Source of the DNA: Actinopolyspora mzabensis
GTDB taxonomy: Bacteria > Actinomycetota > Actinomycetes > Mycobacteriales > Pseudonocardiaceae
Length of the DNA: 64,000 bases
Direction: 5' to 3'
Assembly: GCF_900101095.1 (NCBI RefSeq)
Contig: NZ_FNFM01000004.1
Coordinates: forward strand, 248,001-312,000
The translations under genes were made by a program, and so were the position numbers. Under the pieces are notes generated by a model. The model was not told where the DNA came from. It searched no databases and saw only the letters and a program-made list of their open reading frames with translations. This document shows positions 2,366 through 31,200 of this stretch, one piece after another (the stretch's first letter is position 1; each line of letters begins with the position of its first letter).

Positions 2366-2773
2366 ATGGCCACATCAGACCCACTGGCTCACGAGGCTCC
2401 TGATCTCGATCCGGAGACACTGCGTACCGCCAGTATCGACGAGCGCATCGACAGCATCGAGGAGTTCCTCTGTCATGAGCTGGATCGGGCGTTGGACCTA
2501 CCCCCCGATTCTCGTTGCGACCCCCGTAGGCCGTTTCATGCCCAGGGGGTGGGTTCCATGACGGCACTGCGACTCAAAAAGCAACTCGAGTCGGTGCTGT
2601 GCATCGAGATCGAAATCGTGCAGCTCCTGCGCTCACAGAGTCCGGCCGAGCTGGCAGCGCTGTGCGCGCTGCGGATCGAGGACCCCACGCTCTCCGGCAA
2701 GGACTCTCCCAAGACGGTGAGTCGGTCCTGTGGTTCTTCGGTGTGCAGCGATGAGCGGCCCTCGGGTGAGTGA
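2366..2773 (+). CDS. Stand-alone acyl carrier protein (PKS/NRPS type)
   Basis: A 135-residue carrier protein that would hold an acyl or aminoacyl group on phosphopantetheine. The core runs from about residue 28 to 108. The attachment Ser64 is in GVGSMTAL, a variant of the usual D/G-x-S-L/M motif at the start of helix 2, followed by an LKKQLESVL helix. The ATG at 2366 has AAAGGA about 9 bases upstream; the 28 residues before it are not carrier-like. The last 30 residues are Ser/Cys-rich tail. The stop overlaps the broken PPTase gene, so the two formed one unit. Its partner enzyme is not evident; the only synthetase nearby has its own carrier domain. Confidence 0.75.
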   Translation: MATSDPLAHEAPDLDPETLRTASIDERIDSIEEFLCHELDRALDLPPDSRCDPRRPFHAQGVGSMTALRLKKQLESVLCIEIEIVQLLRSQSPAELAALCALRIEDPTLSGKDSPKTVSRSCGSSVCSDERPSGE

Positions 2774-3413
2774 TGGTCAGCAGGATCTGTGGTTGCTCCG
2801 ACAGCCGTGGATCGAACAGCCCGGAGATCGGTTGAGCACCGCCGAACTCGACGAGTACGAACGGATGCGGGCGGCAACGTTCAACCGGACGCATGACCGG
2901 CTGTTGTCCCTTGCAGTCCATATCGGCCTGCGTCGTCCACTGGGTTCCTATCCGGATATCGTGCCCGAGGCGCGCTTCACCGGGGAAACCCGTCCGAATT
3001 GCGGCGCACCCCACGGTCGCCCGGTTTGGTCGGCGTTCCGTTGCACTATTCGTCGTCACATACCAGCGGCCTCGCACTCCTCGGAGTGGCAACGGAGCCA
3101 GGCGGAGTGGAGGGGGAGGTGTAGCCGTCCCCGGAGACCGTGGATTTGTGCAGTTTCCGCGCTGCACCCTACCGAACAAGCGGAGTTGGGGCCCTGACGG
3201 ACTCGCAGTGCCGATGGTCATTCGGGCGGCTGTGGCCGCACAGCGAGGCCTGGCTGAAGTGGGCTCGGTACCGGACTCGATCGTGATCCGGCAGCCGACT
3301 CTCCTGGTGAGCTCACCGATGACGCGGTGTCGTCCGCGCTGAGGAGATGGACCGTGCGCAGCTTTGCCCGCGTTTCCGATCACGTCAATCACGTTGCCGC
3401 GATTGCCGAATAA
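2751..3413 (+). pseudogene. Sfp-type 4'-phosphopantetheinyl transferase, multiply frameshifted
   Basis: The full length of an Sfp-like transferase (about 221 codons) can be followed, but only by changing frame. The N-terminal part is in the frame of the ATG at 2751, including CGAPHGRP near 3000. VPLHYSSSHTSGLALLGVA is in another frame from about 3026 and meets a stop near 3122. LHPTEQAELG returns to the first frame and ends at the stop 3195-3197. FGRLWPHSEAWLKW, the W-x-x-KEA helix with Lys changed to Ser, is in the second frame. GTGLDRDP through WTVRSF to HVAAIAE is back in the first frame, ending TAA at 3411. At least four frame changes mean the gene is dead unless the sequence is wrong. 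It would have activated the overlapping ACP and the NRPS carrier domain. Confidence 0.8.
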
Positions 3414-3533: not shown

Positions 3534-3700
3534 ATGTCTTACAGACCCATCAACCTCGCTGCCGTCATCGGTAGCGTACGAAACGGCCGTTTCGGCCCGA
3601 CCGTCGCCAACTGGTTTTTTGGCCGGTCCCGGATCCGAGAGGTGTGCTTTCCGGACTAGTCGACCTTGCGAAGTACCCCTTGCCGTTTTGTGCCGAGGTT
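3534..3700 (+). pseudogene. NADPH-dependent FMN reductase fragment, frameshifted and truncated
   Basis: The ATG at 3534, with AGGAG upstream, opens a frame reading INLAAVIGSVRNGRFGPTVA, the flavodoxin-like phosphate-binding start of NAD(P)H-dependent FMN reductases. That frame stops near 3657. In the next frame the family text continues as LVDLAKYPLPF (about 3650-3685), corresponding to the usual VDLADxPLPF, and then homology ends; the Pro-Glu-Tyr-Asn region is absent. It is therefore both frameshifted and deleted. A flavin reductase would fit beside the NRPS, whose oxidase domain uses FMN. Confidence 0.7.
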
Positions 3701-4147
3701 CATGCGGTGAGGTTTCGAGAGGTGAGCAGTTTTCACAACCGGTGGGACGAGTTCGGGGAAGGCGGCGAATCCGGAGGCCGGCGGGAACAGGGGGCGAGGG
3801 GCTGGAGCGAGCCCGGGCCGGTATTTCCGGTACGGCTTGAGTATGGGTTGTATCGTGTCGGGCAACATGTGCGGCCTACTCGTGGCTTCCGAGGACGAGG
3901 ATGCCGTGGGGGCCCGTGGTTTCGGGTATTTACTGGGGTTTACCTCTGAGGTCGAGTCCGACAACGACTTGCAAAGATTTAACAAAATTACCCGCGACGA
4001 TGATTAACATCGAGGTTTTGGTGTGCGACACTGTTTTCGGTTTCGCGCATTCGCATCGAAGGACGGAGCACGGAGAAGCGCGAGTTTTCCGTGGTTTCGA
4101 GTGAAACTGTTTATTTTTGCGAACGACCTTTTCAGGAGGAAGTGAAG
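3701..4147. other. Intergenic DNA upstream of the TrpF-like gene
   Basis: No recognisable coding sequence follows the flavin-reductase fragment. The stretch 3960-4020 is AT-rich and contains the second copy of the GCAAAGATTT motif. A strong AGGAGG ribosome site (4135-4141) belongs to the next gene. Confidence 0.5.
3971..3989 (+). repeat. Upstream motif copy 2 (GCAAAGATTTAACAAAATT)
   Basis: Second copy of the motif at 2126-2144, differing at three of 19 positions, 158 bases before the TrpF-like gene. A weaker relative (CTTTGTCAAACTT) occurs near 3418, before the flavin-reductase fragment. Confidence 0.45.
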
Positions 4148-4822
4148 ATGAATCGACTCGTCCAGGTTGCCGGGATTATCGATGCCGACGAGGCGGCGCT
4201 GCTTTGTGCCGAGGGGGTCGATTGGCTGGGGTTCCCACTACGGCTGCCCTCGGGCAAGGACGACATCTCCGAGGAAGACGCTACGAAGATCGTTTCCGGT
4301 CTCGAGTCCCCCCGTGCCGGGGTGCTGATCAGCTATCTGACCGACGCGGATGAAGTCAGCGAGTTCTGCACTCAACTGGGTGTGACCGCCGTGCAACTGC
4401 ACGGCGATGTGGCCGACGACCAGTTGCGCAAGCTGAAATCCGATCGCCCCGACCTGTACGTCCTCAAGAGCCTGGTGGTGCGCGAGGACAATGCCGAGGA
4501 GCTGCTGGCGCTGGTCGACGCGGTGGCGGACTCGGTGGACATGTTCATCACCGATACCTACAACCCGGCCACCGGAGGGAAAGGTGCGACGGGCTTGACG
4601 CACGACTGGGAGGTCAGTGCCGAGCTGGTTCGCCGTTCCCCGAAGCCGCTGATGATGGCAGGCGGACTGAATCCGGACAACGTGGCCGAGGCGATTCGAC
4701 AGGTGCGGCCAGCCGCGGTGGACGCTCACACCGGCCTGGAGGGGCCGGACGGGCGCAAGGACGTGGCCAAGGTTCGCAAGTTCGTTTCCGAGTCCCGCCG
4801 CGCCTTCGCTCAACTCGGCTGA
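4148..4822 (+). CDS. TrpF-like (phosphoribosylanthranilate isomerase family) protein with altered active site
   Basis: A 224-residue TIM-barrel protein of the PRA isomerase family. TrpF converts N-phosphoribosylanthranilate to an aminodeoxyribulose phosphate by Amadori rearrangement. The phosphate-binding elements are present: GGKGATGLTHDW (about 144-155) and MAGGLNPDNV near 180, and the candidate general acid Asp136 is kept in FITDTY. The N-terminal VKICG signature, which carries the catalytic Cys, is here VQVAG (residues 5-9), so Lys is Gln6 and Cys is Ala8. It is therefore unlikely to be the tryptophan enzyme. It opens a same-strand run with the UPRT and NRPS. A binding or isomerisation role on a phosphoribosyl compound is inference. 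Confidence 0.8.
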   Translation: MNRLVQVAGIIDADEAALLCAEGVDWLGFPLRLPSGKDDISEEDATKIVSGLESPRAGVLISYLTDADEVSEFCTQLGVTAVQLHGDVADDQLRKLKSDRPDLYVLKSLVVREDNAEELLALVDAVADSVDMFITDTYNPATGGKGATGLTHDWEVSAELVRRSPKPLMMAGGLNPDNVAEAIRQVRPAAVDAHTGLEGPDGRKDVAKVRKFVSESRRAFAQLG

Positions 4823-4889
4823 CACCGGAAGCAGACCGGTCGGCCATGTGATCGTTCGTGCTCACCTCATCCACCAGGAGCGTCACGTC

Positions 4890-5573
4890 ATGACGAGCAT
4901 CGACAATGTCCATCCGCTGCCACAGACCAATCAGCTGCGGGCGATGCACACCATCATCCGCGACAAGCACGCGTCCCGAGCAGACTTCGTCTTCTACTCG
5001 CGCAGAATAATCCGCCTCCTGCTGGAGGCGAGCATGGATTTACTGCCGTTCGACAAACACGAGGTCACCACGTCGGTGGGCGAGACCTACCACGGATTGA
5101 AGTTCAGTTCGAAACTCTGCGCGGTGCCGGTCATCCGGGCCGGAGAGAGCATGGAAGCCGAACTGCGGGAGATACATCCGAGCATTCGCATCGGCAAGAT
5201 CCTCGTCCAGCGGGACAAGGAGACCAAGCTTCCGCACCTGTATTACTCCCACCTGCCGGACGACATCGCCGAGCGGCAAGTGCTGCTGCTGGAACCGATG
5301 CTGGCCACGGGCGGTTCGGCACTCGCGGCGATCGAAGTTCTGCTCGGCGCGGGCGTGCCGGAGGAAAACATCGTTTTCGTCAACTTCCTCGCCTCCCCGT
5401 CCGGGATCGACACCGTCTGCCGGACTCACCCGAAGTTGAAGATCGTCACTTCCTCGATCGAGGAGCGCCTGAACGAGAACTCCTTCATGATTCCCGGAAT
5501 CGGTGACTTCGGGGATCGCTATTTCGGGACCGCCGACTCGGGGGCGCGGGAAGCCGCTCGGGCAGGGCGTTGA
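4890..5573 (+). CDS. Uracil phosphoribosyltransferase, eukaryote-like type
   Basis: A 227-residue phosphoribosyltransferase converting uracil and PRPP to UMP. It reads like the eukaryotic (Fur1/Toxoplasma-type) family: IIRDKHASRADFVFYSRR near the start, GETYHGLKF, IRAGESMEAELRE, the PRPP loop EPMLATGGSA (135-144), and the uracil-binding end IPGIGDFGDRYFGT. The ATG at 4890 has AGGAG 9 bases before it; an earlier ATG lacks one. A housekeeping upp would not be expected inside an NRPS operon. In the minimycin pathway a UPRT (MinD) protects the producer by raising UMP against a toxic C-nucleotide, so self-resistance is the best hypothesis. That transfer of role is inference. Confidence 0.88.
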   Translation: MTSIDNVHPLPQTNQLRAMHTIIRDKHASRADFVFYSRRIIRLLLEASMDLLPFDKHEVTTSVGETYHGLKFSSKLCAVPVIRAGESMEAELREIHPSIRIGKILVQRDKETKLPHLYYSHLPDDIAERQVLLLEPMLATGGSALAAIEVLLGAGVPEENIVFVNFLASPSGIDTVCRTHPKLKIVTSSIEERLNENSFMIPGIGDFGDRYFGTADSGAREAARAGR

Positions 5574-5625
5574 GAGAGCGAAACAGTTGTAAACGCGAAA
5601 CCGCGTACCAGCAAGTTAGGGGAAC

Positions 5626-8600
5626 ATGTTGGAAACCGCACAGTTCATCGAACGAAGACAGGACACTCTGCTGGGATCCTGCTTACCCGAGCTGTTGAAG
5701 CAGCAGGCGGCTGCGCAGCCCGAAGCCGTGGCGGTCGCTGACAACGATCGGCAGCTGAGCTATCGGGAGCTGACCGAGGCCAGCACGCGGCTGGCCGCAC
5801 ATCTGAATCACCTGGGGGTGACCACCGAGACCCGCGTCGGCTTGTACGTCGAACCGTCCCTGGAACTGATGACGGGGGCGTGGGGCGTGCTGTTCTCCGG
5901 AGGTGCCTACCTGCCGCTGTCTCCGGAGTACCCCGAAGACCGGCTGCGGTACATGATCGAGGACAGCGGTACGAAGGTCATCGTCACCCAGGGGCATCTC
6001 GTCGAGCGCCTGGCGCAACTGGCGCCGCAGGGCACGAAGATCGTCACGTTGGACGACGCGGAAGAGTGCGTTTCCACTCCGGACCAGGTTCCGAGTTCCG
6101 ACAACTTGGCGTATGTCATCTACACCTCCGGCAGTACCGGCAGGCCGAAGGGCGTGATGATCGAGCATCGTAGTCTTGCTTCTCAGCTGCGGTGGATGTT
6201 CTCCCGTGGTTACCTGGGCAAGCACACCACGGTGCTGCAGAAGACGCCGATGAGTTTCGACGCGGCGCAGTGGGAGATTCTGGCTCCGGCCTGCGGTGCT
6301 CGGGTCGTCATGGGGCCGCCCGGTAGCTACCGGGATCCCGAACTGCTCAACGAGACGATCATCGAACACGACATCACCACGCTGCAGTGCGTCCCCACCC
6401 TCCTCCAAGCACTGCTGGAGACCGAGGAGTTCCGCAAATGCGTCTCGCTGCGCTGGGTTTTCTCCGGCGGTGAGGCGCTGTCGAAGCAGCTGGCGCGCCA
6501 GCTCGTCGACGACTTGCCCTCGGTTTCCCTGGTGAATCTCTACGGACCAACCGAGTGCACGATCAACGCGACCGCTTACTCGGTCGACCCCGCCACGGTC
6601 GGAGAGGGCGGGGGGACGGTCCCGATCGGCACGCCGGTCGACAACACCCAGTGCTTCATCCTGGACGCGGAAATGGCCCCGGTCCCCATTGGTGAGACCG
6701 GTGAGCTCTACATCGGCGGGAAGCAGCTGGCACGCGGTTATCTGCATCAGCCGGAGATGACCGAACAGCTTTTCGTCCCGTCCCCGTTCGTGCCGATGGA
6801 GCGGCTGTACAGAACCGGTGATCTGGCGTACTGGAACTCCGACGGCACGATCCAGTTCTCCGGGCGGGCCGACAACCAGGTCAAGCTACGCGGCTACCGC
6901 GTGGAGCTTGACGAGATCGCACTGGGGATCGAGGAGCACACCTGGGTTCGACGAGCCGCAGCCATCTGTACCGAGGACCCCAGGACAGGCTTTCAGGACC
7001 TGGTGGGCTGCGTTCAGCTGAACGCCAAGGAAGCGGCTCTGATGGATCAGGGCAACCACGGTTCCCACCATCAGTCCAAGGCCAACAAGCTCCAGGTCAA
7101 GGCGCAACTGTCCAACCCGGGGCTTCCCGAACCGGACGAGCTGGCCGGGCTGCCCGCTGTGGACCTGCTCAACGAGCAACCCACGACGAGGCAGCAGCAG
7201 GAGGTCTTCGCTCGCAAGACCTACCGCTTCTACGAGGGCGGCGAGGTCAGCGCGGCAGACATCCACGAGCTGTTGCGGCCGCGGTCGATCAGTGACTTTT
7301 CCAGGAACCTGGATGAGTTGTCGTTCGCCGAGCTGGGGGAGCTGCTGCGTTGGTTCGGTCAGTTCCACAGTGACGAACGACTGCTGCCGAAGTACGCCTA
7401 CGCCTCTCCGGGGGCGCTCTACGCGACACGGATGTATCTGGAGATCTCCGGGATCTCGGGTCTGGAACCAGGTGTGTACTACTACCACCCGGCCGAGCAC
7501 CGGCTGGTGCGGTTCGGTCGGGTCACGGACTCCCGCGAAGTGCGGCTGAAGGTTCACTTCCTGGGCAAGCAGCAGGCCGTCGAGCCGGTGTACAAGAACA
7601 ACATCCGGGAAGTGCTGGAGTTCGAGACCGGCCACATGCTCGGAGTGTTCGAGGAAGTGCTGCCCGAGTACGGGCTGTCCATTCGCCCGCTGGAGTACCG
7701 GGAAGCGGTCAGGGAAGAACTGGGCGCTGCAGCGGAGGACCACTATCTGGGCACCTTCGAGATTCGCCCGAACGACGGTGTGCCCCAGCCGGAGGCCACC
7801 GAGATCTACGTGCAGGCCCATCCCGGACGTATGGCCGACCTGCAGGCGGGCCAGTACCGGTACCGGAACGGTGAACTGGAACTCATCTCCCATGAGCTCG
7901 TGCTGGGCAAGCACGTGATAGCGATCAATCAGCAGGTCTACGAGCGGGCGAGCTTCGCGATCACGGCAGTCAGCCGTGCCGCCGAAGAGTGGCTGGAGTA
8001 CATCAGCCTGGGGAGCAAACTGCACCACTTGCAGCGCAACGACCTGTCACTGGGGTTCATGTCCTCGGGATACAGCTCGAAGACCGGCTTTCCGTTGCCA
8101 TCCGCGCAGCGCATGGACGATATCCTCACCTCCTGCGACATCGCCCCCGGGCCCTCGTACTTCTTCCTGGGTGGGCGGGTCAGTCCGGAACAGATCCGCA
8201 GCGAGGGCATGTACGAGGACATGGTCCACATGAGGGGGCCCGCGGAGATCATCAAGGACGATCTGGCTCATTTCCTGCCCGACTACATGATTCCGAACCG
8301 GATCGTGCTGCTCGACGAGATGCCGTTGACCGCGAACGGCAAGGTCGACTGCAAGACGCTGGCGGCTTCCGACGACTTGAAGCCCGCGGAAACTCCCGAC
8401 GGCTACGTGGCCCCCGAGACGTCCACCGAACGATGGTTGGCCACGGAGTGGGGCAAGGTACTGAAGTACGAGGACGTGTCGATGGCGGACGATTTCTTCG
8501 TCTGCCGAGGTAACTCGCTGATCGCCGTCACACTCGTCAACAAGATCAATCGGGAATTCGGAACGCGACTGCCGTTCCAGATCGTGTTCGAGTACCCGAA

Positions 8601-9462
8601 GCTCGCCGACCTGGCGGCCAGGATCGACGACGATTCCCCACAGGAGTCCTCGCGTCTGGTGCCGCTGCACCACGGGGGCGATGACGATCCCGTGTTCTGC
8701 TGGCCGGGTCTGGGTGGTTATCCGATGAACCTCCGCGTCCTCGCTCGTGAGGCGGGAGTGGCGGGCCCGTTCTACGGGATGCAGGCCCACGGCATCAACG
8801 CCGGGGAGGAGCCGTACCACACCATCCGTGAGATGGCCGCCGCCGATGTGGCCGAGATCCGGCGCGCGCAGCCGGAGGGTCCGTACAACCTGTGGGGATA
8901 CTCCTTCGGTGCCAGGGTGGCGTTCGAGGCAGCCTGGCAGCTGGAGAGCTCCGGCGAGCGGGTGGAGAACCTGCTGCTGATCTGCCCCGGGAATCCGAAG
9001 GTCCGTGAGATCGACGGAGAGCGTCACGGGCGTACCGCGTCCTACGACAATCCGGCGTACGTGACGATCCTTTTCTCCGTCTTCGCGGGAGCCATCAGTG
9101 GCTTCGAGCTCGATAGGTGTCTCGAGGCGACTCACGACGAGGAGAGCTTCGTAACGTTCGTCCACGAGTTGTATCCGGCGCTGGACAAGCAATTGATCAG
9201 GAGGATCACCCGGATCGTGGGAGAGACGTATGAGTTCGAGTACAGCTTCCGCGAGCTGAACGAGCGACGGCTCGACGCGCCGGTGACCCTGTTCAAGGCC
9301 TCGGGGGACGACTACTCGTTCATCGAGGGCAGTTCCGGGTACTCCGCCGCTCCACCCACCGTGGTCGAACTGGAGAGCGATCACTACGGCGTGCTGCAGG
9401 AGCGGGGTGTTCACGAGCTCGTCTCGGCGATCCGTTCCAGCGTCGGCACGGAACGGAGCTGA
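5626..9462 (+). CDS. indC: Indigoidine-synthetase-type NRPS (A with inserted oxidase, T, TE)
   Basis: A 1278-residue single-module synthetase, almost the length of BpsA (1283). BpsA-type enzymes activate L-glutamine, cyclise and oxidise it, and release an aminopyridine-dione that dimerises to blue indigoidine. Motifs in order: A3 TSGSTGRPKG (167-176), A4 FDAAQWEI, A5 YGPTE (306-310), A7 YRTGDL, A8 from about 413; an inserted FMN-dependent McbC-like oxidase about 508-815 (KYAYASPGALYATR); A10 NGKVD near 905; carrier Ser964 in RGNSL; thioesterase GYSFG with Ser1093 and His1253. All catalytic elements look intact. It needs a PPTase from elsewhere, since the local one is broken. Association with PsuG and UPRT leaves a C-nucleoside product possible instead of the pigment. 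Confidence 0.93.
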   Translation: MLETAQFIERRQDTLLGSCLPELLKQQAAAQPEAVAVADNDRQLSYRELTEASTRLAAHLNHLGVTTETRVGLYVEPSLELMTGAWGVLFSGGAYLPLSPEYPEDRLRYMIEDSGTKVIVTQGHLVERLAQLAPQGTKIVTLDDAEECVSTPDQVPSSDNLAYVIYTSGSTGRPKGVMIEHRSLASQLRWMFSRGYLGKHTTVLQKTPMSFDAAQWEILAPACGARVVMGPPGSYRDPELLNETIIEHDITTLQCVPTLLQALLETEEFRKCVSLRWVFSGGEALSKQLARQLVDDLPSVSLVNLYGPTECTINATAYSVDPATVGEGGGTVPIGTPVDNTQCFILDAEMAPVPIGETGELYIGGKQLARGYLHQPEMTEQLFVPSPFVPMERLYRTGDLAYWNSDGTIQFSGRADNQVKLRGYRVELDEIALGIEEHTWVRRAAAICTEDPRTGFQDLVGCVQLNAKEAALMDQGNHGSHHQSKANKLQVKAQLSNPGLPEPDELAGLPAVDLLNEQPTTRQQQEVFARKTYRFYEGGEVSAADIHELLRPRSISDFSRNLDELSFAELGELLRWFGQFHSDERLLPKYAYASPGALYATRMYLEISGISGLEPGVYYYHPAEHRLVRFGRVTDSREVRLKVHFLGKQQAVEPVYKNNIREVLEFETGHMLGVFEEVLPEYGLSIRPLEYREAVREELGAAAEDHYLGTFEIRPNDGVPQPEATEIYVQAHPGRMADLQAGQYRYRNGELELISHELVLGKHVIAINQQVYERASFAITAVSRAAEEWLEYISLGSKLHHLQRNDLSLGFMSSGYSSKTGFPLPSAQRMDDILTSCDIAPGPSYFFLGGRVSPEQIRSEGMYEDMVHMRGPAEIIKDDLAHFLPDYMIPNRIVLLDEMPLTANGKVDCKTLAASDDLKPAETPDGYVAPETSTERWLATEWGKVLKYEDVSMADDFFVCRGNSLIAVTLVNKINREFGTRLPFQIVFEYPKLADLAARIDDDSPQESSRLVPLHHGGDDDPVFCWPGLGGYPMNLRVLAREAGVAGPFYGMQAHGINAGEEPYHTIREMAAADVAEIRRAQPEGPYNLWGYSFGARVAFEAAWQLESSGERVENLLLICPGNPKVREIDGERHGRTASYDNPAYVTILFSVFAGAISGFELDRCLEATHDEESFVTFVHELYPALDKQLIRRITRIVGETYEFEYSFRELNERRLDAPVTLFKASGDDYSFIEGSSGYSAAPPTVVELESDHYGVLQERGVHELVSAIRSSVGTERS

Positions 9463-9497
9463 ACCCCGCACCTCGACGGGGCACCGAGATACCCGCG

Positions 9498-9528
9498 GGC
9501 GGACCGGCCCTTCCGCTGCCGGTCCGCC
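9498..9528 (+). terminator. Hairpin between the NRPS and tautomerase genes
   Basis: Ten-base arms GGCGGACCGG and CCGGTCCGCC enclose an 11-base loop, followed by CTTTCCC. It lies 36 bases after the NRPS stop and could terminate or attenuate transcription before pptA and psuG, lowering their expression relative to the NRPS. Confidence 0.5.
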
Positions 9529-9558
9529 TTTCCCGGAGAGCAGACGAAGGAGTTTTCC

Positions 9559-9792
9559 ATGCCACACGTCACCATCAAGCACTTCCCACGGAACTTCACG
9601 CACCAAGAGCAGCAGCGGTTGGCCGCGGAGATCACCGCACTGGTCCTGGAGAACTTCGACACCCACGGAGACGCCGTATCGATCGCGCTGGAGCCGGTGG
9701 AAAAGCCCGAGTGGCACGAGAAGGTCGTCGTCCCCGAAGTCACGGAACGCGCGGAACTGTTGATCAAAGCGCCGAACTACCGGAAACAGTGA
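9559..9792 (+). CDS. PptA-like tautomerase (4-oxalocrotonate tautomerase family)
   Basis: A 77-residue protein beginning MPHVTIKHFP, so Pro2 becomes the N-terminal catalytic base after Met removal. Length and sequence follow E. coli PptA (77 residues), including ISIAL-like SIALEPVE and the Leu-Ile-Lys-x-Pro-x-Tyr end. AAGGAG precedes the ATG at good spacing. Such enzymes interconvert keto and enol tautomers. In this operon the substrate may be the glutamine-derived pyridine-dione from the NRPS or its ring-modified product, which is inference. The gene ends 8 bases before psuG, so the two are co-translated. I know of no indigoidine cluster that requires it. Confidence 0.85.
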   Translation: MPHVTIKHFPRNFTHQEQQRLAAEITALVLENFDTHGDAVSIALEPVEKPEWHEKVVVPEVTERAELLIKAPNYRKQ

Positions 9793-9800
9793 GGTGAACC

Positions 9801-10733
9801 GTGCACGCGTACAACAGTGTTCCGCTGATTGTCAGCGAAGAAGTCTCCGACGCCCTCGCCTCCGGCGATCCGGTCGTGGCGCTGGAGTCGAACGTCATCA
9901 CACACGGCTTGCCCTACCCGGACAACGCGGCTACCGCTCGGAAGGTGGAGCAGGCCGTCCGGTCCGGGGGAGCCACCCCCGCGACGATCTGTATCGAGGA
10001 CGGTGCCATCCGGGTCGGTATGACCGAGTCGGACATCGAGCGTTTCGCCGTCACGCCGGGAATCCCGAAAGTGAGCAGTCGGGACATGTCGGTGGTGCTG
10101 GCCCAGGGGTACAGCGGGGCCACCACCGTTGCCTCCTCGGTGGTGGCCGCGGACTTGGCGGGCATACCGTTCTTCTCCTCGGCAGGCATCGGCGGGGTGC
10201 ATCGGGGAGCCCAGGAGACGATGGACATCTCTTCGGATCTGATCCAGTTCACCCGCTCCCGGGTCGCCGTGGTCTGCGCCGGGGCGAAGATGATCCTGGA
10301 TCTCGGTCTGACGATGGAGCACTTGGAGACGCACTGTGTGCCGGTGGTTTCCTACCGCTCGGACGACTTTCCAGCCTTCTACTGCGTCACTTCGGGATTT
10401 GCCAGTCCACACCGGATGGACGACGAGCGGCTCTTGGCCAGAGCCGTCGAGAACCACTGGGCACTCGGGAACCGTTCCTCGTTCCTGATCACCACTCCCG
10501 TCCCGGAACGGGAAGCCATCGACAGCGGTGAGGTCGACCGGACGATTCGGGAGGCCACGGTAGCGGCCGAGAAGGACGGGGTGAGTGGCCAAGCGATCAC
10601 GAAGTACCTGATGCGGGCCGTTGATGCGGCGACCGAGGGACGCTCGGCACGGGCGAACACGGCAGTGCTCGTTTCCTGCGCCGAGGTGGCGGGGCGGCTG
10701 GCCGCGGTTCATGCCGGCGAGGTTGTCCGATGA
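9801..10733 (+). CDS. indA: Pseudouridine-5'-phosphate glycosidase / IndA family
   Basis: A 310-residue PsuG-fold protein. PsuG reversibly breaks or makes the C-C bond between ribose 5-phosphate and uracil; relatives serve in indigoidine (IndA), minimycin and alnumycin pathways. Visible elements: [16 protein letters not shown] with catalytic Glu29, [12 protein letters not shown], the Asp of DISSDL, and the Schiff-base Lys163 in CAGAKMILD. The usual Asn-Asn-Ala near the C-terminus reads Ser-Cys-Ala here (LVSCAEVAG), which may alter activity. The start is GTG, with GAGGTGA upstream. No HAD phosphatase (IndB-like) is fused or adjacent, so the dephosphorylation step would have to come from elsewhere. 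Confidence 0.9.
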
Positions 10734-10748
10734 TCCGTCGGTGCGACC

Positions 10749-11261
10749 TCAGTGGCCCGTCTCGTTCGGGGCGGTGTCGCCGAGGCTGATGAGGAGTTTG
10801 CGCAGCAGTTCGGTGAGGTCTCCCTGCTCGTGCGGATCGAGTCCGGCTAGCGCTCGTGTCTCGTGCTCGACGTGGTCGCCCACTGCCGCGTCCACAACTC
10901 GGTAACCGTGTTCGGTGAGTGTGATCAGCACGCTGCGCCGGTTACCGGGGTCCGTTTCGCGGGTCACCAGTTCCTTGGCCGCCAGCCGGTCGATGCGGTT
11001 GGTGATGGCTCCGGAGGTGACCATGGAGGCTTCGACGAGGGCGCTCGCGGTCAGTTGATACGGGGAGCCGGAGCGGCGGAGTGTGGCCAGGATGTCGAAT
11101 TCCCAGGATTGCAGGTCGTGGGCGGCGTAGTTCTCGCGCAGGGTGCGTTCGAGCAGTTGGGAAGCTCGCTTGACGCGTCCCACCACGCCCATCGGTGCGG
11201 GATCGATGTCCGGTCGTTCGGTACTCCACTGTTCCAGCAGTCGGTCCACGCTGTCCCTCAC
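10749..11261 (-). CDS. MarR-family repressor
   Basis: A 170-residue winged-helix regulator. The N-terminal helix region is followed by the recognition helix (ALVEASMVTSGAITNRIDRLAAKELV) and a wing with DPGNRRSVLITLT. The GTG start at 11261 has AAGGAG upstream. It ends 15 bases after psuG in convergent orientation and is divergent from the EamA exporter, with a repeat-bearing 85-base region between. The standard reading is a repressor of the exporter, released by the pathway product or a related toxic compound. Confidence 0.87.
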   Translation of the reverse strand: MRDSVDRLLEQWSTERPDIDPAPMGVVGRVKRASQLLERTLRENYAAHDLQSWEFDILATLRRSGSPYQLTASALVEASMVTSGAITNRIDRLAAKELVTRETDPGNRRSVLITLTEHGYRVVDAAVGDHVEHETRALAGLDPHEQGDLTELLRKLLISLGDTAPNETGH

Positions 11262-11271
11262 TGATCTCCTT

Positions 11272-11340
11272 AATGTTGAAGTATTTGACCCATACTATCA
11301 GACGAGTTACTCTATTGAACGTTGATTAGTTTAACGTTGA
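11272..11340. promoter_or_regulatory. marR/eamA divergent promoter with three AAYGTTGA repeats
   Basis: Three direct copies of AA(T/C)GTTGA lie at 11272-11279, 11318-11325 and 11333-11340; the last two are 15 bases apart. A plausible plus-strand promoter is TTGACC (11285-11290), 17 bases, then TACTCT (11308-11313). The last two repeats lie just downstream of it, where a MarR dimer would block transcription. Confidence 0.55.
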
Positions 11341-11346
11341 GGTGAA

Positions 11347-12369
11347 ATGATGACCTGGATCTCTGCAGCCGGAAGTTCCGCCGCGGGCGGATCCCCGGCA
11401 CGAACCTGGAGTCTGACCGGTCTCGCCGCGCTGGCACCGGCGACGTGGGGCACCACTTACCTGGTGACCACCGAGTTCCTACCGCCGGACCGCCCGATAC
11501 TTTCCGGTGCGATCCGGGCGCTGCCCGCTGGGCTGATCGTGCTCGCGATGACCCGGACACTGCCGCGGGGAAGCTGGTGGTGGCGTGCGGCTTTGTTGGG
11601 CACTCTCAACATCGGAGCCTTCTTCGCGCTGTTGTTCGTCGCCGCTTACCGATTGCCCGGGGGTGTCGCGGCCACCCTCAGCGCGGTGCAGCCGTTGTTG
11701 GTGGCGGGGTTGGCGTTCGGGTTGCTCGGGGAGCGGCCGACGCGTTGGCGGCTGGGCTGGGGAGTGGCCGGAGTGGTCGGGGTGGCCATGATGGTGCTTC
11801 AGGGCGAGCTCGGCTTCGATCCGATCGGGCTCGTGGCAGGACTCGCCGGTGCCGGGGCGATGTCGGCCGGGGTTGTGCTGACCAAGCGGTGGGGCCGTCC
11901 CGAGGGAGTGAGCCTGTTGACGTTCACCGGCTGGCAGTTGACCGCGGGTGGTCTCCTGCTCGCGCCGCTGGCTCTGGCTTTCGAGGGGATGCCCCCACCA
12001 CTCGATCTTTCCGCGGTCGCCGGATACCTCTGGCTCGGCGGTGTCGGCACCCTGCTGGCCTACATGCTGTGGTTTCAGGGGGTGGCTCGGCTGCCCGTCG
12101 CGGCCGTGTCATTCCTCGGGCTGCTCTCCCCGGCCGTGGCCACGATCCTGGGGTGGTTGGTCCTGAACGAAACCCTGACCGCCGTCCAGACCATCGGTTT
12201 CGTGCTCGCCCTGCTCTCGATCGCGGCAGCACAGCTCAGTCCGCCCGCCTTCGGCAAGTCGAACCGATCGAAATCGCCGTCCCCGTCGGGAGAACCGGCA
12301 CCGCAAGCCGCCGTGGTGGAGGAGTCCGAAGGTTCCCGACCCGCACCTGCGGCGACAGCCCACCGGTAG
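11347..12369 (+). CDS. EamA/DMT-family transporter
   Basis: A 340-residue inner-membrane permease with ten predicted hydrophobic segments in two repeated EamA halves (about 20-145 and 160-290). The first half begins TWGTTYLVTTEFLPP; the second ends WLVLNETLTAVQTIGFVLALLSIA. The C-terminal 45 residues are hydrophilic and Pro/Ser-rich. Family members export amino acids, nucleosides or drugs. It is divergent from the MarR gene and adjoins psuG, so export of the cluster product is the natural proposal, comparable with the transporter of the minimycin set. Two adjacent ATG codons open the frame; either could be used. Confidence 0.85.
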   Translation: MMTWISAAGSSAAGGSPARTWSLTGLAALAPATWGTTYLVTTEFLPPDRPILSGAIRALPAGLIVLAMTRTLPRGSWWWRAALLGTLNIGAFFALLFVAAYRLPGGVAATLSAVQPLLVAGLAFGLLGERPTRWRLGWGVAGVVGVAMMVLQGELGFDPIGLVAGLAGAGAMSAGVVLTKRWGRPEGVSLLTFTGWQLTAGGLLLAPLALAFEGMPPPLDLSAVAGYLWLGGVGTLLAYMLWFQGVARLPVAAVSFLGLLSPAVATILGWLVLNETLTAVQTIGFVLALLSIAAAQLSPPAFGKSNRSKSPSPSGEPAPQAAVVEESEGSRPAPAATAHR

Positions 12370-12417: not shown

Positions 12418-13299
12418 TTGAGTCGAACCCTGTTGATCACCGGAGCCACCGGAACTGTGTCCAGTGCCCTGTTGCAGGCCCTGCGGGATTCCGATCTCGA
12501 ACCACGGGCGTTGGTCCGTGACAAGGCGAAGGCCGAGCGGTTCGAGGCACGGGGCGTACGGGCCGTTGTCGGCGACCTCGACGACGCCCGGTCGCTGCCC
12601 TCGGCCTTCGAGGGCGTGCAGGACCTGTGGCTGCTGACTCCGAACAGTCCCCGGGCGCCCGAGAACAACATGAACGCCGTCTGGGCCGCACGTCGAGCGG
12701 GCGTGGAACGGGTGGTTCGCCTGTCGGCGGTCGGTGCGGCCCATGACGCACCGACCCGCAGTGGACGGTTGCACGCACTGTCCGATCGCGAGACCGAACG
12801 GTCCGGCATGTACTGGACGATCCTGCGCCCCCACTGGTTCATGCAGAATCTGCTCAACGAGGCGGGTGATATCGCGGCCGAGGGAACGTTCTCGCTCAAC
12901 ATGGGACAGGGACGGCTGGGGATGATCGACGTGCGCGACATCGCCGAGTTCGCCGCGCGGGTGCTCACCACGGAACCGGAGCGCCATCACGGCAAGACCT
13001 ACACCCCGACCGGACCGCGGTCGCTCTCCTTCACGGAGGTGGCCGAACAGCTCGGTCGAACGCTCGGACGGGAGATCCGCTACGTGCCGACGGCCGACGA
13101 AATCGAGCGCAAGACTCTGCTCGACATCGGCGTGCCGGAATGGATGACCGAGATGCTCATCGAGTACGGGCAGGCCTACGCGACCGGCTGGGGCGACTTC
13201 ACGACTAGCGATTTCCGGAACGTCGTGGGCCACGAGCCCCGAGGCCTCGCCGACTTCGCACACGACCACGCCGACAGCTTCGCCCCCGCACACCGATAA
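12418..13299 (+). CDS. NmrA-like NAD(P)-binding oxidoreductase
   Basis: A 293-residue atypical short-chain dehydrogenase. The Rossmann start is LLITGATGTVSSALLQAL, followed by ALVRD (NADP-binding strand 2), a GDLDD segment and VRLSAVGA. The NmrA/NAD(P)H-azoreductase-like C-terminal part includes FTEVAEQLGRTLGREIRYV. There is no Tyr-x-x-x-Lys pair in the classical SDR spacing, so it may reduce quinone-type substrates or act as a redox sensor. It begins at TTG (12418) with GGGAAAGGAAG upstream and follows eamA by 48 bases, so it is probably in the MarR-controlled unit. A role on azaquinone products is inference. Confidence 0.8.
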   Translation: MSRTLLITGATGTVSSALLQALRDSDLEPRALVRDKAKAERFEARGVRAVVGDLDDARSLPSAFEGVQDLWLLTPNSPRAPENNMNAVWAARRAGVERVVRLSAVGAAHDAPTRSGRLHALSDRETERSGMYWTILRPHWFMQNLLNEAGDIAAEGTFSLNMGQGRLGMIDVRDIAEFAARVLTTEPERHHGKTYTPTGPRSLSFTEVAEQLGRTLGREIRYVPTADEIERKTLLDIGVPEWMTEMLIEYGQAYATGWGDFTTSDFRNVVGHEPRGLADFAHDHADSFAPAHR

Positions 13300-14125: not shown

Positions 14126-15589
14126 TCAGGCGGCAACGGCCCTTTCGGTCTCCGAGATCTGTTCCGCCGCGGCGGGCCCGCGGCCGACGAACGACTTGGT
14201 GGCGAGCACGACGGCTGCGGCCACCAGCACCCCCGTCAAGATCGCGAGCAAGTACAGCAACGGACTTCCGACCAGCGGCAGCACGAACAGTCCACCGTGC
14301 GGGGCACGCAGCGTCGCCCCGAACAGCATGGACAGCGCACCCGCGCTCGCCGAGCCGAGGATCATCGACGGGATAACCCGGAACGGGTCCGAAGCGGCGA
14401 ACGGAATCGCCCCTTCGGTGATGAACGAGGCTCCCAGTAGCCAGGCGGGACGTGAGCTCTCCCGCTCGCCGGGGGAGAACGACCTGGCGTGAACGGTCGC
14501 GGCCAGCGCCATCGCCAACGGTGGCACCATTCCCGCGGCCATCACGGCGGCCATGATCTCCAGCGCCGTCTCGCTGCCGGTGGTCAGCCCTCCGACAGCG
14601 AAGGTGTAGGCGACCTTGTTGACGGGGCCCCCGAGGTCGAAAGCGATCATTCCGCCGAGCACCGCGCCCAGCAGCATCGCGTTCGCGCCGCTGAGCCCGT
14701 TGAGCCACGCCGTGAGAGCGGTCATCGCGGCAGCGATGGGTTTGCCCAGCACCACGAACATCAGGGTGCCGACCACCATCGAGCCGAACAGGGGGATCAC
14801 GACCACCGGCATGATGCCCGCGACGGCCGAGGGGACTCTGACCCGGCGCAGCCCGAGGACGACTCCACCCGCCAGCAGCCCCGCGATCAGGCCGCCGAGG
14901 AACCCCGCTCCGACCGCGACGGCCGCTGCGCCGCCCACGAAACCGGGAACCAGTGCGGGGCGTTCGGCCATCGCGAACGCGATGAAACCGGCGAGCACCG
15001 GGACGAGGAACTCGAAAGCAGCCGTGCCGATCTGGTTCGCCAACGCGGCCCAACTGGTCAGACTCGCCGGATCGAACCGCTCGGTGACATCCGGTGCTTC
15101 GGTGATCTGGTAACCGCCCAACGCGAAGCTCAGCGCGATCAACAGTCCACCGGCGGCGACGAACGGGATCACGTAACTGACCCCGGTCATCAACCACTGG
15201 CGAAGCCGTACGGCCGCCGAGGCGTTCGCGGTGACCTTGGTGGCCGGTTCCGAGCTCGGGCCTTCCGAGCCTGAGCCGACCCGCATCGGCTCGGCCGTCG
15301 CCGCGCGTTCCAGCAGGGAAGCGGCGCTGTCGACGGCCTGCTTCACACTCGCCTCGACTACGGGCTTGCCCGCGAACCTGTCTCGGTCGGTTACCCCGAC
15401 GTCGGCAGCGAGGATCACGGCGTCGGCCGCATTTATGTCCTGTTCGGACAACGGATCGGAGCCGGCCGCTCCCTGCGTCTCGACGCTGAGCTCGTCACCC
15501 CGGTTACGGGCGGCCTGTTCCAGCGCCTCGGCAGCCATGTAGGTGTGCGCTATGCCGGTGGGGCACGCGGTCACGGCGACGAACTTCAA
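14126..15589 (-). CDS. fruA: Fructose-specific PTS enzyme IIBC
   Basis: A 487-residue membrane permease that imports fructose with phosphorylation at C1. The EIIB domain (about 1-100) has phospho-Cys9 in VTACPTGIAHTYMAAEAL. A linker (100-130) precedes the multi-span EIIC domain (about 135-480) with SYVIPFVAAGGLLIALSF and EGAIPFAASDPFRVIPS. The EIIA function is on the separate upstream gene, with a 4-base overlap of stop and start, so translation is coupled. Confidence 0.94.
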   Translation of the reverse strand: MKFVAVTACPTGIAHTYMAAEALEQAARNRGDELSVETQGAAGSDPLSEQDINAADAVILAADVGVTDRDRFAGKPVVEASVKQAVDSAASLLERAATAEPMRVGSGSEGPSSEPATKVTANASAAVRLRQWLMTGVSYVIPFVAAGGLLIALSFALGGYQITEAPDVTERFDPASLTSWAALANQIGTAAFEFLVPVLAGFIAFAMAERPALVPGFVGGAAAVAVGAGFLGGLIAGLLAGGVVLGLRRVRVPSAVAGIMPVVVIPLFGSMVVGTLMFVVLGKPIAAAMTALTAWLNGLSGANAMLLGAVLGGMIAFDLGGPVNKVAYTFAVGGLTTGSETALEIMAAVMAAGMVPPLAMALAATVHARSFSPGERESSRPAWLLGASFITEGAIPFAASDPFRVIPSMILGSASAGALSMLFGATLRAPHGGLFVLPLVGSPLLYLLAILTGVLVAAAVVLATKSFVGRGPAAAEQISETERAVAA

Positions 15590-16038
15590 GGTTTGACCTC
15601 CTCACGCACGTAGGAAGCGACCACGGCCGGCTCGTCCGCGTCGAGCAGGGTTCGTTTGAATTCTTCCCGCATCAGTCGACGTGCCAGCGAGGCCAGCACC
15701 GCCAGGTGGTCCGAATCCCCGCCTTCCGGCGCGGCTATCAGAAAGATCAGATTCGCCGGACCGTCCTCGGCGCCGAAATCGATCCCCGATGTGCTGCGCC
15801 CGAACGCCAGGCTCGGAGCGGTCACGGCGGCCGAGCGGCAGTGCGGGATGCCGATGCCGCCCCGCATGCCGGTGGCCATCTGTTGTTCGCGGGTCTCGAC
15901 ATCCTCGAGGAAACGTTCGATGTCGGTGACACGTTCGGCGTCGACCAGCCGGTTGGCCAACGAGCGGACCGCGGCGCGCCGATCCGCGTCGGGCAGGTCC
16001 AAATCGACCAGTTCGGTGGTGATCAGTTCACTGCTCAT
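15586..16038 (-). CDS. Fructose-specific PTS enzyme IIA
   Basis: A 150-residue PTS-Fru/Mtl/Ntr-type EIIA domain. His66 in GIGIPHCRS is the phosphorylated residue. It overlaps fruK upstream by 11 bases and fruA downstream by 4 bases. In many actinobacteria this domain is fused to EIIBC; here it is split. Confidence 0.93.
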   Translation of the reverse strand: MSSELITTELVDLDLPDADRRAAVRSLANRLVDAERVTDIERFLEDVETREQQMATGMRGGIGIPHCRSAAVTAPSLAFGRSTSGIDFGAEDGPANLIFLIAAPEGGDSDHLAVLASLARRLMREEFKRTLLDADEPAVVASYVREEVKP

Positions 16039-16996
16039 TCTTCGACTCCGTTACGGCGACATGGGGGTCGAGCCGACCCGATTCGTCGATTTCGGTGATC
16101 CGCACCTGTTCGATCCGCAGGTCTTTCGGCGTGGGCATTCGGCTCCCCGGCAGTTCCACGGCTGCCGAGCCGTAAGCCACGGCGGAGCGCAGGGCTTCCG
16201 GTCCGTCTCCGCCCGCGAGTAGATACCCGGCCAGCGCGGCATCGCCCGCGCCGACCGTGCTGCGCACCCTTCGGGCGTTGCTCGTGCCGAACCAGGCCGA
16301 TTCGTCCCCGACGAGCAGCGCGCCGTGCTCACCGAGGGTGACCAGCACGGAGCCGGTTCCCTCGGAGCGAACCGCTCGTGCGGTGGCGGCCACTTCGGCG
16401 AGGTTCTCGGGCCGGTGGCCGGTGAGTTCGGTCAGCTCCGCCAAGTTGGGTGCGAGCAGATCGGGACCTGCCACGCACGCCTCGGCCAACGCGGCACCCG
16501 AGGAGTCCACCGCGACCTTCGCGCCGGCCGCGCGGGCGGTGCGTACCAGACCGGCGTAGTAGTCGTCGGGGCAACCGTGCGGCAGGCTCCCGCTCGCCAC
16601 CACCCATCGCGCTCGCGTGGCCACCTCACCCAACCGGGTGCGCAACGCTTCCAGCTCGCCGGTGGTCAACGCGTTTCCGGGTTCGTTGATCTTGGTAGTG
16701 GTCCCGTCGGCCTCCACCAGGGTGAGGTTGCTGCGGGTGGCCGCCTCCACGGGCACCTCGACGACGGAGACGGCCTCCGGTGCGAGCAGCTCGGCGAGAC
16801 TGCTTCCCTCGACCCCTCCGGTCGGCAGTACTGCCACCGCGCTGTGCTCGGCCGCGGTCAACACGCGGGCGACGTTGACTCCTTTGCCGCCGGGGTCCAC
16901 GTGTACTCCACCGGCGCGGTGCACCTCCCCCCGAGCGAGACGATCGAGCAGCACGCTGCGATCCAGACTGGGGTTCGGGGTGACGGTGACGATCAT
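16028..16996 (-). CDS. fruK: 1-phosphofructokinase
   Basis: A 322-residue PfkB-family kinase turning fructose 1-phosphate into fructose 1,6-bisphosphate. It starts MIVTVTPNPSLDRSVLL and has GGKGVNVARVL, the substrate-binding GTTTKINEPG and the catalytic GAGDAALAGYL (anion hole and base Asp). The ATG at 16996 overlaps the stop of fruR as ATGA and gives the normal family start; an upstream ATG adds eight extra residues and is not preferred. Confidence 0.94.
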   Translation of the reverse strand: MIVTVTPNPSLDRSVLLDRLARGEVHRAGGVHVDPGGKGVNVARVLTAAEHSAVAVLPTGGVEGSSLAELLAPEAVSVVEVPVEAATRSNLTLVEADGTTTKINEPGNALTTGELEALRTRLGEVATRARWVVASGSLPHGCPDDYYAGLVRTARAAGAKVAVDSSGAALAEACVAGPDLLAPNLAELTELTGHRPENLAEVAATARAVRSEGTGSVLVTLGEHGALLVGDESAWFGTSNARRVRSTVGAGDAALAGYLLAGGDGPEALRSAVAYGSAAVELPGSRMPTPKDLRIEQVRITEIDESGRLDPHVAVTESKNEQ

Positions 16997-17754
16997 GTCA
17001 GTACCACCTCCGTTCCGCACTCACGCAGCTCGGAGACCGCCGCCTCGTGCAAACCACTGTTGGTGATCAGCACGTCGAGATCGGATATCTCGGCGAAACG
17101 GCTGAAATGGTCGCGGCCGTACTTGGTGTTGTCGGCCAGCAGGACTCGTTCACGGCAGGACCGCACCATCGCCGATTTCACCGCGCTTTCCGCGCTGTCC
17201 GGGGTGGTACAGCCCCGTTCGGCCGAGAAACCGTTCGTGCCTAGCAGACCGACATCGACGGTCAGACCGTCCAGCACGCTCAGTGCCCAGGACTCGACCG
17301 CGGCCAGCGTCGTGCCTCGCACTCGACCGCCGAGCAGGTGCACGTCGAGGTTGCCCCGGTTGGCCAACTGGTTGGCCACCGGAAGGGAGTTGGTGACCAC
17401 CGTCAGTTCGTGCTCGGTGGGTAGCAGGCCCGCGACTCGGCTCGTCGTGGTTCCCGCGTCCAACAGCAGCGTTCCCCTCGCCGGCACCACCTCCAGCGCG
17501 GCACGGGCCACGCGGTCCTTCTCCGCGGCGGCTGTCTGGTCGCGCTGGGAGACACCGGGTTCGAAGTCGAGCCGTTCCTGCGGGATCGCCCCACCGTAGA
17601 CGCGGCGCAGCAGTCCCTGGCGCTCCAAGGTGCCGAGATCGCGCCGAATGGTCTCCGGTGCTACCTCGAGCTCCGCGGAGGCCTCCGCGACGTCGATACG
17701 ACCGTCGTGGCGTGCCCGCTGCAACAGCACCTGCCGACGCTCCGCCCCGTACAT
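16993..17754 (-). CDS. fruR: DeoR-family repressor of the fructose operon
   Basis: A 253-residue regulator. The DeoR helix-turn-helix is at residues 3-57 (ERRQVLLQRARHDGRIDV, then APETIRRDLGTLERQGLLRRVYGG). The sugar-phosphate sensor domain has LLLDAGTTTSRVA and LLADNTKYGRD. GGAGG lies 8 bases before the ATG at 17754. It is the first gene of fruR-fruK-EIIA-EIIBC-HPr and probably represses its own operon, released by fructose 1-phosphate as in related systems. Confidence 0.92.
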   Translation of the reverse strand: MYGAERRQVLLQRARHDGRIDVAEASAELEVAPETIRRDLGTLERQGLLRRVYGGAIPQERLDFEPGVSQRDQTAAAEKDRVARAALEVVPARGTLLLDAGTTTSRVAGLLPTEHELTVVTNSLPVANQLANRGNLDVHLLGGRVRGTTLAAVESWALSVLDGLTVDVGLLGTNGFSAERGCTTPDSAESAVKSAMVRSCRERVLLADNTKYGRDHFSRFAEISDLDVLITNSGLHEAAVSELRECGTEVVLT

Positions 17755-18389
17755 GCCCGTTGTCCTCCGTTCTGATTTTTGTTGCTGACTGATTTTGCCC
17801 GTTGTTGTTGTGTTGTCAAGGTCACATCCTTTTCTGGATCGATTGGCCGCAGCTTTCCGGAGGTACTGCGCAGGAGAGGCAAAAGCGAAGTCTTGGATCG
17901 GGAGCGCCCCCGAAAGGCGTTGTACCGCGCTCGGCCGGTGGCATCCCTGGAACCGACCGAAGCGGGAAGTAGGTCGATCCGCTCCCGAGGCTCGGTGCGT
18001 GTGCCGGGATCTTCTGCCCGGCTGGTGGCCGGCCCCACGGCCTCGGCCACGTTGTAGGAGATGGTGGCCACCACCAGTCCGCGCCCCCGTAGGCAGATCG
18101 GGTGGTTGGAAACCTTGGAGCGGCTCGGCCCGAGGTGTTCGGCCGGCAGGCCTGGTTGGTGGGTTCCCGTCGGCAATGCCGTCGGGACACGGCAGCGACC
18201 CGGATCGGCCCACGTCCGACCCGGGCGTGGCAGCGCTTCCTCGCTGGTTTCACATGGCAGCACCGATGCATTAGTACAGCTAACAGTGAACTTTTTCCCG
18301 TGCGGAGCAGTAACACCGAGGAGGGGAGCGAACGACTTCCGGGCACGGTGTTCGACCCCACATGTGTCCCCGGGAGCTGAACCGGGAAG
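17755..18389. other. Divergent intergenic region with fru operon promoter
   Basis: 635 bases between fruR and the helicase gene. Next to fruR is T-rich DNA with TGATTTT repeated at 17773-17779 and 17790-17796 (17-base period) and several TTGTTG units; this is the likely FruR operator. The remainder shows no recognisable gene, and the long frames crossing it on the minus strand are antisense to the helicase. Confidence 0.5.
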
Positions 18390-25904: not shown

Positions 25905-25938
25905 GGGGGACTCCTATGGGGTTGATGGGGCGATTTCG

Positions 25939-25973: not shown

Positions 25974-26002
25974 TTGTCGGGGGGATGGAGATCGATGCGC
26001 TC

Positions 26003-31196: not shown

Positions 31197-31200
31197 CACC

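Follow-up and report, generated by a model that had tools for sequence, protein, structure and literature searches.

The 64 kb stretch of Actinopolyspora mzabensis DNA analyzed here (hereafter the window, to whose full length all coordinates refer) carries, at positions 4148-12369, a gene cluster that includes a nonribosomal peptide synthetase (NRPS) of the indigoidine type. Five co-directional genes, for a TrpF-like protein (TrpFL) with the phosphoribosylanthranilate isomerase (PRAI) fold, a uracil phosphoribosyltransferase (UPRT), the NRPS, a tautomerase and a PsuG family protein, are followed by a minus-strand MarR gene and a divergent EamA transporter gene. This arrangement recurs across genomes, which places it beyond chance, and its gene content marks it as a genuine and repeatedly found branch of the indigoidine/minimycin family, one in which TrpFL and a HAD phosphatase are nearly mutually exclusive. 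Indigoidine synthetases find use as reporters with a blue readout, and C-nucleosides are leads for antibiotics; except in the case of minimycin, however, what brings PsuG and UPRT genes together with such synthetases is not settled. A branch in which a TrpF relative lacking the catalytic residue of TrpF stands in the place of the phosphatase points to a candidate enzyme and a candidate product in a compact five-gene set.

A contig scan of the genome collection with TrpFL yielded 51 loci, which do not represent a census because such a scan detects close relatives only. In all 23 loci of one group (L035-L057), a UPRT gene is found in the same locus as TrpFL, mostly adjoining it; an EamA gene is likewise present in all 23, NRPS and PsuG genes are present in 20 each, and a MarR gene often occurs (presence being called by identity floors of our own choosing). 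These loci come from Actinomycetota (Streptomyces, Kitasatospora, Actinoplanes, Dactylosporangium, Rhizocola and Millisia) and from Proteobacteria (Rheinheimera, Chromohalobacter and one 'Oxalobacteraceae' record). The other 28 loci, hereafter distant, contain no further gene of the set, save two weak response-regulator matches to an OmpR-like protein of the window. In addition, TrpFL was matched at E 1e-30 in nine plasmid records, among them pSA3239 (S. lavendulae) and pET44827 (C. aurimucosum), and no match was found in the phage collection. The preliminary description of this DNA had named the genes of the set; all are present and intact where it placed them, as indicated by matches to Pfam, NCBIfam and solved structures, and the possibility that it had raised of a gene order peculiar to this strain does not hold.

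Among 150 genomes of the family of the host (its own included), 53 show some match at E 1e-8, and TrpFL was found, besides the window, only in three (G066, G114 and G131; 63-65% identity), each with the cluster. TrpFL is absent from all five genomes of the same genus that were searched, so the window copy probably was acquired. In one actinobacterial genus, a PsuG gene of the cluster type lies beside NRPS and tautomerase genes in 10 of 15 genomes, and TrpFL was confirmed in the three fetched (L094-L096). The cluster thus appears, from these comparisons, to be a recurring, horizontally moving variant that is partly plasmid-borne.

The nearest solved structures of the TrpFL model (pLDDT 94.8) are TrpF (PRAI) enzymes. 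In TrpF, a Cys acts as the base, an Arg binds the substrate carboxylate and an Asp is the general acid. TrpFL shares with these enzymes the fold, the phosphate site and the catalytic Asp; in contrast, in the alignment with T. maritima TrpF, the catalytic Cys is replaced by Ala8, the Lys that precedes this Cys by Gln, and the equivalent of Arg36 by Asp38. The Arg position holds Asp or Glu in most members of the family, and the catalytic Asp and the phosphate site are kept in the comparison with canonical TrpF, which includes 21 of the 28 distant loci. In the alignment of 31 members, which covers 13 of the 28, Q6, D39, D136, H152, G172-G173 and K204 are invariant and A8 is nearly so. The 13 canonical TrpF rows were chosen by a motif of which the Lys and the Cys are part, so that their 100% conservation is by selection; one of the 14 sequences fetched had no such row and was dropped.

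TrpFL matches 13 NCBIfam TrpF models and scores below the cut-off of every one. In 10 of the 28 distant loci, the genome was checked for a second PRAI gene, and a better-scoring one was present in all 10. The lost residues, the NCBIfam cut-offs and this second gene rule out a role of TrpFL as the canonical TrpF in tryptophan supply. Judged by sequence, TrpFL represents a separate PRAI-fold enzyme family, and genes annotated 'phosphoribosylanthranilate isomerase' in these clusters very probably are not TrpF. The label of TrpF homolog given in the preliminary description does not extend to the active site. Free-standing homologs of 45-60% identity (L058-L077) were seen in genomes of Lentisphaerae, Verrucomicrobia, deltaproteobacteria and others, with no neighbors in common, and the listing of 22 distant loci likewise revealed no conserved neighbors. 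Because the distant homologs are solitary and occur with another PRAI gene and without PsuG (0 of 10 genomes checked), TrpFL probably was recruited into the pathway.

The relationship between TrpFL and the phosphatase was examined through PsuG. In 392 genomes of Streptomyces, the genus of one of the TrpFL loci (L038), PsuG was matched at E 1e-85 in 33 genomes at 34 places, of which 33 were fetched, the remaining one being that of L038 itself. Among the fetched loci, 19 are NRPS-linked: 12 with TrpFL, six without it, and one on a truncated contig with TrpFL on another contig of the genome. Five of the six TrpFL-negative loci (L161 and L165-L168) encode a HAD phosphatase, a DUF4243 protein and a UPRT along with NRPS and PsuG, which is the gene content of minimycin clusters, and the sixth (L163) encodes a HAD phosphatase. 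Across 46 NRPS-PsuG loci, HAD is present in one of 39 with TrpFL and in seven of seven without it (p 1.5e-7); L125 and L173 were set by hand as TrpFL-positive in this table, TrpFL being elsewhere in those genomes, and count as negative in the DUF4243 comparison, where the figures are 0 of 37 loci with TrpFL and five of nine without. Since many loci are near-duplicates (e.g. L040/L171 and L049/L172), collapsed counts are reported as well: with PsuG collapsed at 95% identity, HAD is found in one of 29 vs six of six (p 4e-6). None of the seven HAD-type genomes contains TrpFL anywhere, apart from one weak 36% match.

The absence of a phosphatase, noted in the preliminary description for this cluster alone, is, within the stretches fetched, a feature of nearly the whole TrpFL group. 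In the window itself, no HAD phosphatase or DUF4243 homolog was found within bases 1-24000 at identity floors of 40% and 38%, respectively; the host genome has a single DUF4243-family match, a weak one (27.6 bits against a cut-off of 27), on the same contig about 103 kb past the right end of the window. Conversely, 13 of the 14 Streptomyces PsuG loci without a cluster NRPS (L175-L188) have a HAD homolog close by, which suggests that PsuG is ordinarily paired with HAD and that HAD was lost in the TrpFL line. In the PsuG tree, in which some deep forks are weak, two HAD-type loci (L097 and L163) fall inside an otherwise TrpFL-type clade that also holds the window (99/95). On this placement, the exchange of TrpFL and HAD probably happened more than once, there and at the minimycin split.

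Several characterized systems resemble the cluster. The minimycin (oxazinomycin) cluster minABCDT of S. hygroscopicus JCM 4712, as presented in sections of PMC8724604, encodes MinA with a Tau domain, MinB, MinC, the UMP pool-protecting MinD, and MinT. The window shares with it a Gln-type NRPS, the Tau function, a PsuG type protein (MinB), a UPRT (MinD) and a transporter, but has no MinC (HAD plus DUF4243) nearby and adds TrpFL and a PecS/PecM-like pair. Compared with indigoidine indA-indB-indC sets, the Gln-predicted BpsA/IndC-type NRPS is present and no IndB phosphatase was found at the identity floor used in the 24 kb covered. The S. albus J1074 indigoidine cluster (SSHG_00311-00316) shares an IndA-like protein, a separate 4-oxalocrotonate tautomerase, a Gln-type NRPS, a transporter and a phosphoribosyltransferase; unlike the window, it encodes an IndB-like protein, and a TrpF-like gene is not mentioned in the relevant passages of PMC3992020.

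In pET44827, whose black-pigment region comprises orf17-orf21, the gene order is MarR, TrpFL, upp, NRPS, tautomerase, PsuG and EamA, which matches the window from TrpFL to PsuG; the MarR gene, however, is upstream and the proteins are just 34-55% identical to those of the window. In the corresponding section of the 2010 paper on this plasmid, the PRAI homolog was noted and guessed to aid NRPS activation, a role that the authors guessed for orf19 and orf20 (PMC2830990). The indigoidine region of pSA3239 from S. lavendulae CCM 3239 encodes TrpFL, UPRT, EamA, tautomerase, PsuG and NRPS proteins 42-79% identical to those of the window, but adds an alkene reductase and a phosphoribosyl pyrophosphate (PRPP) synthetase and has the NRPS gene last, followed by a SARP regulator. 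In the literature searched, in which few subscription papers were covered and some sources only in part, the function of TrpFL is not studied and the gene set is not described as a group. Within these bounds, what is new is that the TrpFL family can be told by its residues and that TrpFL and the phosphatase nearly exclude each other, whereas the tautomerase, the UPRT and the PecS/PecM-like pair are already known in the indigoidine/minimycin family, leaving TrpFL as the distinctive element.

Pfam detects AMP-binding, PP-binding and thioesterase domains in the NRPS; the oxidase domain has no Pfam match and was judged only by full-length alignment with relatives. Motif strings examined by eye, with GrsA numbering, give the substrate code D-A-W-Q-F-G-L-I-N for nine of the ten positions. 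It agrees with the Gln code DAWQFGLINK reported for the S. albus J1074 synthetase (PMC3992020, in part) and accordingly is taken as Gln-type. Residues 14-1274 align with the pSA3239 NRPS at 59% identity; in a tree built by a quick method, the window NRPS has no starred support and its nearest rows are two detached Kitasatospora synthetases. The tautomerase falls just below the NCBIfam PptA cut-off of 83 bits, and its Pfam scan, run only on a misframed version, reported no family. By its sequence, it is the stand-alone counterpart of the Tau domain of MinA/IndC. PsuG matches the solved PsuG 4gij at 5.3e-74 and keeps the active-site Lys, the residue altered in chain 4gim. The best solved relative of the UPRT, which we take to be the Toxoplasma enzyme, is a true UPRT, and the stretch PGIGDFGDR is retained in the alignment.

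Three suggestions of the preliminary description bear on these proteins. The tautomerase is not an innovation of the cluster, given its equivalence to the MinA Tau domain and to the tautomerase of the J1074 cluster described in part of PMC3992020, and it was not detected in four Rheinheimera clusters and that of Millisia. A shielding role of the UPRT is supported by analogy, considering its 63-70% identity to the UPRTs of the five loci with minimycin gene content and the UMP protection reported for MinD (PMC8724604, in part). The MarR/EamA export pair is indeed present, but its arrangement is already known as PecS/PecM from an indigoidine producer: in Dickeya, PecM exports indigoidine and PecS/PecM is a divergent MarR-efflux pair, as stated in part of PMC12288460. 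The window genes are likewise divergent and stand beside an indigoidine-type NRPS; the likeness is one of layout and of the annotation of relatives. In the C. aurimucosum region, the MarR neighbor was likened to PecS with 53% similarity (PMC2830990, section cited above), and a transporter 48-59% identical to the window EamA is present in most TrpFL loci. The MarR-EamA intergenic region contains two exact copies of TTNAACGTTGA (11315-11325 and 11330-11340), the only zero-mismatch matches in the window; with two mismatches allowed, the 27 matches in the window are not above the 21.2 expected by chance (sd 5.1). No match with up to two mismatches is present in 3940-4147, which rules out a shared operator 5' of TrpFL.

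These observations are compatible with a variant pathway, to which we assign about an even chance of being correct. The NRPS would convert L-Gln to an aminopyridinedione that otherwise dimerizes to indigoidine, the tautomerase would present a suitable form of it, and PsuG would couple this form to ribose 5-phosphate to give a C-ribotide. In minimycin clusters, the HAD phosphatase and the DUF4243 enzyme would then finish the molecule, whereas in the window this exit would be replaced by TrpFL. Because the phosphoribose pocket and the general-acid Asp are kept, TrpFL might act on a 5'-phosphoribosyl conjugate, and our guess at the reaction is ring opening, isomerization or hydrolysis. In sister clusters, unlike the window, flavin enzymes (an old yellow enzyme, OYE, homolog or an FMN_red protein) would be added to the route. 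The UPRT, in many relatives with a PRPP synthetase of its own, would hold UMP high against a uridylate-like intermediate and so shield UMP metabolism, and the PecM-like transporter would export the product under a PecS-like repressor. C-nucleoside formation by this route, also put forward in the preliminary description, is plausible by analogy with the logic of minimycin and the role of its UPRT (PMC8724604, in part). A more specific and improbable version holds that TrpFL runs a carbon analog of the TrpF reaction, opening and rearranging the ribose of the PsuG-made C-ribotide to yield open-chain or re-closed phosphorylated C-nucleosides, a product class not met in the literature searched, insofar as its sources were covered; if so, these would replace the dephosphorylated C-nucleoside of the minimycin line.

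Several findings weigh against the C-nucleoside pathway. The lack of PsuG in the genomes with distant homologs implies that TrpFL would not be by nature devoted to C-nucleosides. With PsuG collapsed at 85% identity, only 13 groups remain, one of them mixed, and the HAD contrast shrinks to one of 11 vs two of two (p 0.04). The HAD phosphatase was sought in the fetched stretches, so that one encoded elsewhere in a TrpFL genome could serve, and the Rhizocola locus (L056) holds both TrpFL and HAD. The failure to detect the tautomerase in five clusters and the lack in the window of the OYE and PRPP synthetase genes of many relatives point in the same direction. The main counterweight, however, is that the published relatives are credited with pigments and not with a C-nucleoside: the pET44827 region is held responsible for the black pigment of C. 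aurimucosum (PMC2830990) and the genes of pSA3239 are described as those for the blue indigoidine (PMC10409956), both sources being considered in part.

Accordingly, a cluster for pigment alone is a live rival, possible although not favored: its product would be indigoidine or a darker azaquinone pigment, with PsuG, UPRT and TrpFL trimming side products or protecting the cell from the reactive monomer. Along with the pigments of the two plasmids, the export of indigoidine by PecM in Dickeya is in line with this explanation. Yet, according to a passage of PMC3992020, the activity of a BpsA-type synthetase alone is enough for indigoidine, so that conservation of the gene set across phyla calls for a different explanation; a pure pigment is a poor fit for a UPRT that protects UMP and for a PRPP synthetase, and the section of PMC2830990 concerned bases its black-pigment assignment on annotation. 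Damage control by TrpFL is a doubtful alternative, under which the protein would open or hydrolyze N-phosphoribosyl adducts of ribose 5-phosphate with reactive amines, such as the aminopyridinedione, with no biosynthetic role. Such a function would suit a protein that has lost the base Cys but kept the Asp and the phosphate site, and it would suit the free-standing homologs in genomes that lack PsuG but have a better-scoring PRAI gene; the near-exclusion with the HAD phosphatase suggests a pathway step instead, and the five loci with minimycin content, where the same amine is expected, have no TrpFL. It is rather unlikely that the UPRT homolog N-ribosylates the heterocycle from PRPP, with TrpFL processing the N-ribotide in the manner of TrpD/TrpF and PsuG recycling the sugar: the constant presence of UPRT with TrpFL in the 23 loci and the PRPP synthetase of many clusters would suit this route, but the UPRT retains the true-UPRT stretch, and UPRTs of this type are also found in minimycin-type loci that lack TrpFL. 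Finally, a silent or decaying acquisition without product is very improbable, despite the degraded appearance of the upstream 2.3-4.1 kb and the five sister genomes without TrpFL, as the core frames are all open and their GC3 (0.78-0.84) is close to that of other window genes, and the NRPS could be activated by the products of two PPTase-family matches located outside the cluster in the host genome.

The TrpFL clusters differ in their additions to the core. Of 42 loci compared, 28 add an OYE homolog, 15 of these also a PRPP synthetase, which is located beside PsuG or OYE. In six others, the addition consists of DJ-1/PfpI and alpha/beta-hydrolase genes, which in five cases are accompanied by an FMN_red protein. 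The core without additions is found in the window, L034 and L094-L096; L056 has the HAD gene in the place of such additions, and L042 and L050 are short contigs of no assignable sub-type. The gene after PsuG in relatives, considered as a candidate MinC, is the OYE homolog, followed in many loci by the PRPP synthetase. By analogy with MinD, a PRPP synthetase in the company of the UPRT would suit a UMP-replenishing resistance. In Kitasatospora (L044, L048 and L123, L124), TrpFL, UPRT, EamA, PsuG and OYE genes are together and the matching NRPS is elsewhere in the same genome, with no other probed gene in the 16 kb fetched there; loss of the NRPS, considered for two Kitasatospora clusters, is thereby ruled out. 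In another of the nine plasmid records, from Agrobacterium vitis (L193, 12001-21100), TrpFL and UPRT are matched over their full length, whereas the transporter, NRPS, PsuG and OYE are matched partially or in pieces; an IS481 transposase is close by, and the cluster copy apparently has decayed. Beyond the cluster in L034 (17120-19899), a radical-SAM protein, an AdoMetDC-like protein and an ATP-grasp protein were recognized by eye.

Features of the cluster in the window, with the evidence for each assignment
Feature	Position	Strand	Evidence
TrpF-like protein (TrpFL), PRAI fold	4148-4822	+	PF00697, 1.4e-23
UPRT, MinD-like	4890-5573	+	PF14681, 2e-76; solved relative 1upf, 6e-73
Single-module BpsA/IndC-type NRPS, predicted L-Gln	5626-9462	+	Domain matches, code residues, alignment to pSA3239 NRPS
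PptA-like tautomerase, 77 aa, Pro after start Met	9559-9792	+	YdcE, 2.4e-10; NCBIfam PptA, 78.9 bits
PsuG/IndA/MinB-type pseudouridine-5'-phosphate glycosidase family protein	9801-10733	+	PF04227, 3.3e-108, 361.8 bits
MarR-family regulator, PecS-like by position and relatives	10749-11261	-	PF01047, 5.1e-12
MarR-EamA intergenic region, candidate operator	11262-11346	.	Two exact TTNAACGTTGA repeats
EamA/DMT transporter, PecM-like, probable exporter	11347-12369	+	PF00892, 3.1e-32
NmrA/NAD(P)H-binding protein 3' of transporter, membership uncertain	12418-13299	+	PF13460/PF05368

The gap between the tautomerase and PsuG genes is 8 bases and the remaining gaps from TrpFL through PsuG are 52-96 bases; whole-gene GC is lowest, at 0.61, in the UPRT and tautomerase genes. 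The NmrA protein has no homolog in the compared loci except for a 29% match in an NRPS-free PsuG locus, and none in the three plasmid loci, where the 'NAD(P)H-binding protein' annotated after EamA in pET44827 is not matched by the NmrA query. Upstream of the cluster, a stand-alone PP-binding protein (2372-2770) is followed by a stretch without clear genes up to about 3660, in which a 41-residue frame (3534-3656) shows a weak likeness to the start of an FMN reductase (E 0.079), as if a neighboring gene set had decayed. A phosphopantetheinyl transferase remnant suspected at 2751-3014 has no Pfam match and was discarded. Downstream, a fructose-phosphotransferase system-like operon was recognized by eye from translations on the minus strand (14126-18213), with EIIBC-like (14126-15589), EIIA-like (15586-16038) and PfkB-like (16028-17020) genes and then a gene for a DeoR-like regulator. 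Further along, GcvT-domain proteins and sarcosine-oxidase-like flavoproteins are encoded at 24693-34107.

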